Position numbers and translations under genes: made by a program
Notes under the pieces: model-generated
What the model saw: the letters and a program-made list of their open reading frames with translations, nothing else
Told to the model about the DNA's origin: nothing
Database searches by the model: none
Assembly (NCBI GenBank): GCA_014804355.1
Contig: JAAUZY010000059.1
Coordinates: 1 to 64,000 of the forward strand
Source: Lachnospiraceae bacterium
Lineage (GTDB): Bacteria > Bacillota > Clostridia > Lachnospirales > Lachnospiraceae
Direction of reading: 5' to 3'
Length of the DNA: 64,000 nt
In this document: positions 25,846-47,541 of the stretch, in pieces
How positions within the stretch are numbered: position 1 is the first letter of the stretch
Layout of the letters: the number at the start of each line of letters is the position of its first letter

Positions 25846-25968
25846 ATGATACAGTACAAACTGAGCAGGCCGGAGCATTAGCTTGGGAGCCGGGTCGTTT
25901 CGGGCGACAGCGGATTATGACATCTGCGGGACAGTAGTTACGATTACTGTGTACGCAGGTGTTTTTTT
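25846..25968 (+). promoter_or_regulatory. NiCo (czcD) riboswitch with intrinsic terminator
   Basis: ACAAACTGAGCAGGC...GCCGGG...GGCGACAGCGG...CTGCGGGACAGT conserved elements; terminator ACATCTGCG/CGCAGGTGT + T7; directly upstream of a CDF transporter. Confidence 0.85.
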
Positions 25969-26004: not shown

Positions 26005-26886
26005 ATGGATGATATAAGAGATTATGAGAAAGTGGCGATGAAAGTATCCAAGGTCAGTATCGCGGCAAACTTCGTGCTCACAGTATTAAAGCTACTGGCG
26101 GGGGTGATCGCTCATTCGAGCGCGATGATCTCCGATGCGATCCATTCGGCCTCAGATGTTTTCAGTACGGTCGTTGTCATTGTGGGAATCAGGATTTCCA
26201 GTAAGGCGTCGGATAAGGACCATCCTTACGGGCATGAGCGGATGGAGTGTGTTGCGGCGATTGTTCTTGCCACGATTCTGGCAGCTACCGGACTCGGAAT
26301 CGGATATTCCGCGGTAGGCAAGATTACAGGGGGAGACTACACAAAGCTGGCCGTACCGGGCGTGTTGGCGCTTACAGCAGCGCTTCTGTCCATCATTGTC
26401 AAGGAAGGCATGTATCACTATACAAGAATCTATGCGAAGCGGATCGATTCCGGCGCGCTTATGGCGGATGCATGGCACCATCGGTCTGACGCGTTGTCTT
26501 CGGTAGGCGCGCTGATCGGTATCGCGGGTGCCAGAATGGGATTCCCGATCTTAGATCCGGTGGCCAGTGTGGTGATCTGTTTCTTTATCGAGAAGGCGGC
26601 TTACGAGATCTTCATGGACGCGGTAGATAAGATGGTCGATAAGGCTTGTGACGACGAAGTAGAGACGGCGCTGAGAGAATGCGCACTCGCTCAGTCTGGC
26701 GTGTTGGGCGTGGATCTGTTGCAGACACGTGTTTTCGGCAATAAAATCTATGTCGATATCGAGATCAGAGTGAACGGAGAGATGAAACTTAGGGAGGCAC
26801 ATGGCATTGCGGAACGGGTTCACGATGCCATTGAGCAGAACTTTCCGAAGGTGAAGCATATTATGGTGCATGAGAATCCGGCATAA
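26005..26886 (+). CDS. Cation diffusion facilitator family transporter
   Basis: SSAMISDAIHSASDVFSTVVV...DKDHPYGHERME...ADAWHHRSDALSS. Confidence 0.92.
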   Translation: MDDIRDYEKVAMKVSKVSIAANFVLTVLKLLAGVIAHSSAMISDAIHSASDVFSTVVVIVGIRISSKASDKDHPYGHERMECVAAIVLATILAATGLGIGYSAVGKITGGDYTKLAVPGVLALTAALLSIIVKEGMYHYTRIYAKRIDSGALMADAWHHRSDALSSVGALIGIAGARMGFPILDPVASVVICFFIEKAAYEIFMDAVDKMVDKACDDEVETALRECALAQSGVLGVDLLQTRVFGNKIYVDIEIRVNGEMKLREAHGIAERVHDAIEQNFPKVKHIMVHENPA

Positions 26887-38687: not shown

Positions 38688-38854
38688 AGTGAGTCTCCTT
38701 TTTATGATATATTTGGGGTTTGAAAAAATACATCGATTTTTCATTGCGATGCTATATTAGTATAACCCCTTTTAAAAAGCTTGACAAGATTTTGTGTCGG
38801 TTCAGTCTGGCAGGCCGGCAGGAAAGTTGTTTTTTATATGCGGCAAAACCGGTC

Positions 38855-38991
38855 GCGCAGAGGAAAGTTAATATCTGCGTCACCGCGCTCTCGCTCCGCA
38901 AAAAGCGTAGCGGACACTAGACTCGTGAAATACCTCGTCAAGTGCCGACGCTTTTTGAGGGGTTCCTTCAGATATTAACTTCCCTCTGCGC
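38855..38991 (+). repeat. Structured intergenic element copy 1
   Basis: Arms 38855-38877 and 38969-38991 pair 22/23; inner CAAAAAGCGT/ACGCTTTTTG stem; paralogous to 47324-47475. Confidence 0.85.
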
Positions 38992-39125
38992 TTAGGCTGT
39001 GGAGTGGGTGAGAAAAGTAACTGTGGAAATGTATATACCACAAATGATGGGGACTGATGGGTTTGGCGGAAAGTCTCGTTGCCTGCGGTTGTGGAATGAG
39101 GTACAATAAGGACAGTTAACGCAAA

Positions 39126-47049: not shown

Positions 47050-47323
47050 AAAGAGGTCTCCTTCTTAACATCTGCATATTTGATGGCAGTCTACGTGTCA
47101 GAGCAGTTTACTGCAGTCTATATCCCATACTTGCACCTCATGTATTCTCAGATACTATTCTTTTCATACTTTAGCACGATTTCGGTCTGGAAGCAACGGA
47201 TGATCTGTGCCTGTTTCGGAGGACACGGATGTACAGAAATAATTAAGATGACAAACGGGGGGAATTCCGCTATGATGTAATAAGTGTAAAAATGTTACTG
47301 TTCATAGGTTATCTAGGACGTAC

Positions 47324-47475
47324 GCGCAGATGAACGTGAATATCTACGAAGTCGCGCTTTCGCTCCGCAAAAAGCGTAGCAGACGCTAAACTCGTGAGTT
47401 GCTTTGCAACTCATAACCTCGTTAAGCGCTGACGCTTTTTGAGGGACTTCTTAAGATATTCACGTTCATCTGCGC
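47324..47475 (+). repeat. Structured intergenic element copy 2
   Basis: Perfect 22-bp arms 47324-47345 / 47454-47475; inner stem shared with copy 1; extra TGAGTTGC-TTT-GCAACTCA hairpin. Confidence 0.85.
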
Positions 47476-47541
47476 TGGGTATCGGTTATGTTAAAACAGT
47501 AAAAGCAAATATATTTAGTACGGAGAACGGAGACAGATTAT

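Follow-up and report, generated by a model that had tools for sequence, protein, structure and literature searches.

What is the long paired segment that separates the genes for an FprA-like flavodiiron protein and a ThiF-family (TcdA-like) protein in this Lachnospiraceae bacterium, and what keeps it paired? The original prediction, made on the window (the whole stretch of 64,000 nucleotides analysed here), described positions 38855-38991 as a structured intergenic element whose stems covary with those of a second copy at 47324-47475. Reading the sequence directly, we find the 23-nt arms as described, with 22 of 23 positions paired, as well as the inner stem CAAAAAGCGT/ACGCTTTTTG with its CGG/CCG and CACT/AGTG extensions, and every difference listed between the two copies is real and two-sided. 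The fold of 38855-38991 reaches -65.9 kcal/mol (z -8.9 against dinucleotide shuffles) and that of 47324-47475 reaches -82.4 kcal/mol (z -12.3); in neither case did a shuffled sequence fold equally well. The extent has to be revised: the predicted coordinates delimit exactly an inner hairpin, and the whole element is larger, approximately 196-210 bp (Table 1).

Table 1. Features of the two copies of the element in the window.
Feature	Position	Strand	Sequence, partner or remark
Copy 1, whole MITE	38826..39021 (~196 bp)	.	Outer terminal inverted repeats are degenerate; ends placed by comparison with intact young copies
Copy 1, right end	39009-39021		GTTACTTTTCTCA
Copy 1, probable left target-site duplication	38818..38825	.	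GCAGGAAA
Copy 1, probable right target-site duplication	39022..39029	.	TGTGGAAA
Copy 1, S1 left arm	38855..38877	+	22/23 paired with 38969-38991; helix covaries across copies
Copy 1, S1 right arm	38969..38991	+	Partner of 38855-38877
Copy 1, S2 left strand	38879..38884	+	GTCACC; partner GGTTCC, 38961-38966
Copy 1, small hairpin, conserved sequence	38885..38894	+	GCG-CTCT-CGC; near-invariant columns in A1
Copy 1, S3 left strand	38899..38908	+	CAAAAAGCGT; partner ACGCTTTTTG, 38948-38957; covarying helix
Copy 1, S4 and S5 left strands	38911..38922	+	CGG, CACT, GAC; partners within 38937-38947
Copy 2, whole MITE	47294..47503 (~210 bp)	.	GTTACTGTTCATA at the left end
Copy 2, S1 left arm	47324..47345	+	22/22 paired with 47454-47475
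Copy 2, optional apical hairpin	47396..47412	+	GAGTTGC-TTT-GCAACTC; adds ~15 nt; subset of copies

The two copies belong to a dispersed family. Searching the genome from which the window comes yielded about 30 copies and fragments, and more copies are present in relatives within the genus. A covariance model search of Lachnospiraceae had been suggested at the outset; with a model derived from 79 diverse copies, the core was matched in 66 of 150 genomes sampled within the family, spanning 65 genera, and often more than 10 times per genome. When 300 genomes of the phylum were sampled, the only matches lay in the window's genome and in three further Lachnospiraceae. Public genomes were also scanned with a sequence pattern; among the matches listed, Lachnospiraceae assemblies predominate, and many of them belong to a single study series (isolate names Mgla). 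Rfam covariance models gave no match to the element, either at the gathering threshold for the window and 38 related loci or at the E-value threshold for both copies, in agreement with the earlier statement that it could not be assigned to a known RNA family. At blastn sensitivity, copy 1 found no match in a phage collection, nor copy 2 in a plasmid collection, and no description of such a Lachnospiraceae repeat was found in the open literature. Elsewhere in the window, a NiCo riboswitch (RF02683, 68.4 bits) lies at 25851-25936, upstream of an ORF at 26005.

The core is closed by a helix of ~20-22 bp (S1) whose sequence is nearly free, as illustrated by copies in which the S1 arms are very different in sequence and yet paired. 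Within S1 are found S2, the small conserved hairpin, S3, S4, S5 and the optional apical hairpin, and an alignment of 79 diverse copies (A1) further reveals loops of conserved sequence (CTCG/CCTCG) together with an AR bulge and an A-A mismatch. In A1, two-sided changes occur at 24 of the 34 pairs (347 such cells, against 100 in shuffled and 21-57 in slid controls). The same was observed at 28 of 34 pairs in A2, a set of 41 distinct copies, almost all of which come from other genera, that was fitted to the covariance model and hence leans towards the structure (277 cells, against 78 in shuffled and 25-57 in slid controls). S2 changes on both sides at 4 of its 6 pairs in A1 and at all 6 in A2, and three pairs of S4/S5 in A1 (50-116, 54-113 and 59-108) do so in 23-31 of the 79 copies, with 0-2 unpaired cells each. 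No covariation was detected in A1 within the small hairpin GCG-CTCT-CGC. The covariation anticipated from two copies is therefore far above shuffled and slid controls, inside the genus and in other genera, and supports the view that the folded form of the core is under selection. The initial claim that compensatory change reflects selection on structure stands in this respect; it has to be tempered in that some block differences between copies resemble gene conversion more than compensatory mutations that arose independently. Covariation of this kind is what is expected of a structured RNA, and a DNA structure would yield the same signal.

Two-sided changes could also arise without selection if template switching copied one arm of a palindrome onto the other. 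The very few one-sided intermediates in S4 fit such a neutral correction. Nevertheless, the core holds features that are not palindromic (the AR bulge, the A-A mismatch, the small hairpin and the unequal strands of S2 and S3), which correction would erase and which persist across genera, making this explanation highly improbable. Other rearrangements are visible in the family. At several unrelated loci (L138, L139, L162 and L166, as well as L234 and L298 in genome G028) a hairpin of ~25-40 nt, such as AAAGTTAATTTCGAAGAAATTTACTTT, interrupts the 3' strand of S3 at an identical point and forms a modular insert within the element, and L063 is a chimeric element in which the left halves of two subfamilies are joined inverted, a recombination product.

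In many copies the conserved sequence extends beyond S1 and terminates in an outer inverted repeat, GTTACTKTTCAYA and its complement. We compared the flanks of end pairs located 40-330 bp apart across all collected loci, including full-length and short forms, and found that 11 of 47 end pairs share 7 or all 8 of their flanking bases, while random pairing predicts approximately 0.4. Exact 8-bp duplications next to intact ends are carried by three full-length copies, L229 (AACTGTTA), L299 (ATATATAT) and L304 (AATTATTT), and by a fourth from another genus (L358). The flanks of copy 1 are identical at 5 of 8 positions, an eroded and by itself weak resemblance, and we regard them as probable target-site duplications because of the 8-bp duplications established on other copies. 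There are also short forms of 55-106 bp that have the same ends and lack most or all of the hairpin; coreless elements among them carry exact duplications, and some short forms resemble slippage deletions across the hairpin. In L278, L266 and L270, short direct repeats such as CAGA mark the limits of the lost hairpin, the pattern expected from replication slippage across it.

The element is thus a short dispersed repeat with terminal inverted repeats, fixed-length target-site duplications of 8 bp and no transposase gene. Inspection by eye of ORF starts revealed no transposase gene near ten clustered loci, and no resident transposase or reverse transcriptase gene with the clustered copies. Copies are present or absent at orthologous places, with junctions that do not fall exactly on the element ends, and insertion can hence not always be told from loss. 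Copy 1, for instance, is absent from a close relative (G027), where the missing stretch exceeds the element and fits either event. A subfamily (L202, L211, L233 and L253) has other outer ends, near GTAATTGCGAAAC, and the same architecture of S1 and core. A different element of ~150 bp, with GTTACAATTCACAC ends and without this core, was found at L316:1676-1827 and in L287; it is another MITE with ends of this type, and in L316 it is flanked by an exact 8-bp duplication, GGAACATG.

No autonomous element appeared among the collected loci before IS66 transposases were searched for. In related genomes, IS66-type transposase genes (PF03050) of 592 and 580 codons lie between inverted ends. In L368 these ends are GTTACTTTTCAC, with 23 bases identical at both, and in L372 they are GTTACAATTCAT/GTTACTATTCAC; both loci represent autonomous elements with the same ends as ours. 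The GTTACTKTTCAYA ends, the exact 8-bp duplications and the IS66-type genes flanked by the same ends together identify the element as a non-autonomous DNA transposon (MITE), whose mobility is well supported. IS66 elements have been reported to make 8-bp repeats (PMC3281130). None of the IS66-type copies that we found is flanked by a target duplication, and the window's genome, G028, G194 and G100 yielded no IS66 match. The element is apparently mobilised in trans by IS66-type transposases, as judged from these shared ends. Two other candidate movers were rejected: the one IS256 transposase gene, in G028, does not have these ends, and no ISL3 transposase was found in four genomes. A match to an IS end had been foreseen as a reason to set the element aside; this applies to the outer flanks and not to the core.

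We then asked what happens to the hairpin once inserted. Over 34 orthologous pairs, which share genomes and are not independent, divergence was 4.2% in the core, 4.3% in S1, 13.5% in the ends and their loops, and 8.5% in the 60 bases outside, which are partly coding. The core diverged less than the ends in 32 of the 34 pairs. The 93-nt core of copy 1 is identical in four genomes in which the ends differ, and copy 2 occupies the orthologous place in five other genomes. Since the inner hairpin diverges by ~4% when the ends diverge by 13% and the neighbouring sequence by 9%, the core appears to be selected in place, kept after insertion while the transposon ends decay. In several of the pairs whose cores differ most, a block has been swapped, as conversion by another copy could bring about, and gene conversion between copies, which may slow or mimic changes, counts against this reading.

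These data also bear on whether the element is a purely selfish MITE, in which the hairpin would help transposition (through the folding of single-stranded DNA, or by binding transposase or a host factor), would have no role after insertion, and would owe its conservation to few master copies and to gene conversion. Such an element could explain why covariation is visible between subfamilies, why short forms without the core exist that keep these ends and carry exact duplications, and some block swaps seen at one locus. Yet it does not account for a core that is conserved in orthologous insertions as the ends decay, nor for copies without recognisable ends that retain the paired arms and the core; moreover, the coreless forms seem mobile, and the core may hence be dispensable for movement. 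We consider a purely selfish nature improbable.

The genomic context of the copies was determined by crude ORF calling. Intergenic spaces containing the element are codirectional in 50 cases, divergent in 23 and convergent in 2, compared with 308, 67 and 87 for background spaces. From length, convergent spaces would be expected to make up ~40% of the divergent and convergent total (nominal p ~0.0007, orthologs being counted more than once). Copies are thus mostly upstream of genes and rare between convergent ones, and their orientation relative to codirectional genes is weakly biased (30 versus 20). By inspection, copy 1 has a promoter-like site on either side, the two being divergent, and copy 2 is flanked by one promoter-like site and by a gene of glycoside hydrolase family 2.

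Whether DNA or RNA is the selected form was approached through the pairs themselves. Wobble pairs amount to ~1.4% on the strand read and are no commoner than A-C in A1: G-T and A-C number 37 and 39 in A1, and 17 and 40 in A2, the control (5 versus 0) consisting of four tRNAs only. The scarcity of G-U pairs and the weak orientation bias, together with the location of copy 1 upstream of two promoter-like sites, favour, without certainty, a DNA hairpin or cruciform over RNA as the selected form. The alternative is a structured minus-strand RNA: the core would be transcribed internally or by read-through, would fold, and would act in cis on transcripts (stability, processing or attenuation) or as a small RNA. 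The reverse strand indeed folds better in 70 of 79 copies of A1 and 36 of 41 of A2. Non-canonical pairs are strand-biased as read (T-C versus G-A, 170 versus 66 in A1 and 66 versus 4 in A2; A-C also outnumbers G-T in A2), so that, seen from the reverse strand, most mismatches are G-A, among them tandem ones in S2 and S3. In S1, A-C outnumbers G-T as read (67 versus 22), the loop of the small hairpin reads GRRA on the reverse strand and is GNRA-like, and the position of copy 2, with a promoter-like site on one side and a gene on the other, points the same way. The strand-biased mismatches and the better reverse-strand folding would suit single-stranded DNA of the minus strand as well as RNA, and they weigh against the explanation that we prefer. 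Against RNA, wobble pairs in A1 are as rare as their mirror mismatch, unlike in RNA helices, the gene orientation bias is weak, copy 1 sits between divergent promoter-like sites, and Rfam gave no match. The composition of unpaired bases and loops does not discriminate the RNA strand. On the plus strand the bulge and the apical loops are rich in A, which counts against the minus strand. On balance, a minus-strand RNA, the main rival, seems rather unlikely.

Our preferred explanation, which we hold to be probable, is a MITE moved by IS66-type transposases and carrying a selected inner hairpin that probably acts as a DNA hairpin or cruciform. IS66-type transposases would recognise the outer GTTACTKTTCAYA ends, move the element in trans and make the 8-bp target duplications. 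Inside the MITE, the S1 arms and the S2-S5 core, with its conserved loops and bulge, form a second, self-contained hairpin. After insertion the outer ends decay while selection appears to keep this hairpin, suggesting a putative role in place. Its likeliest action would be as an extruded DNA hairpin or cruciform on the 5' side of genes, either as a supercoiling-dependent structure or as a protein-binding site, and a regulatory role of the core is accordingly putative, drawn from sequence comparison.

Known systems resemble the element in part. Integron attC sites have arms of free sequence that are kept complementary, following a folded-strand logic, and the arms of our element likewise stay complementary; an informal look noticed no integrase or cassette array here. 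MITEs have been described as being 70-300 bp long, with terminal inverted repeats, often beside genes and with robust folding (PMC3733652). Bacterial examples such as bcr1 of Bacillus cereus, ERIC, NEMIS, RUP and EFAR are likewise short non-coding dispersed repeats, from which ours differs in its IS66-type ends, its family-wide core conservation and an interior that outlasts the decaying ends; the first bcr element was described as confined to the B. cereus group (PMC6542083). With IS66 insertion sequences the element shares the 8-bp target duplications and the end sequence, but it has no coding capacity and contains an unrelated folded core. REP elements, associated with RAYT transposases, are also dispersed extragenic palindromes, of 20-40 bp with a GTAG or CGTC tag tetranucleotide at one end, and Clostridia are unmentioned in their description (PMC3733652). 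With its length of ~200 bp, its inverted ends and its duplications of 8 bp, our element does not belong among them.

MITEs are a kind already known, and are usually regarded as narrow-range, short-lived debris. Here the core is found in 66 of 150 genomes of a dominant gut family, its sequence changes fast yet stays paired, and it is conserved after insertion as the ends rot; this breadth across the family and this conservation after insertion are without description in the searchable literature. It is conceivable, at somewhat less than an even chance in our judgement, that the core is a previously undescribed family-wide functional nucleic-acid structure, which IS66-type MITEs have spread to tens of copies per genome and which is selected at many insertion sites, whether as a regulatory hairpin of DNA or as RNA. 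If so, it would offer a testable case of a mobile element that spreads a functional hairpin, and the covariance model allows gut RNA-seq or DNA-structure data to be searched for it directly.
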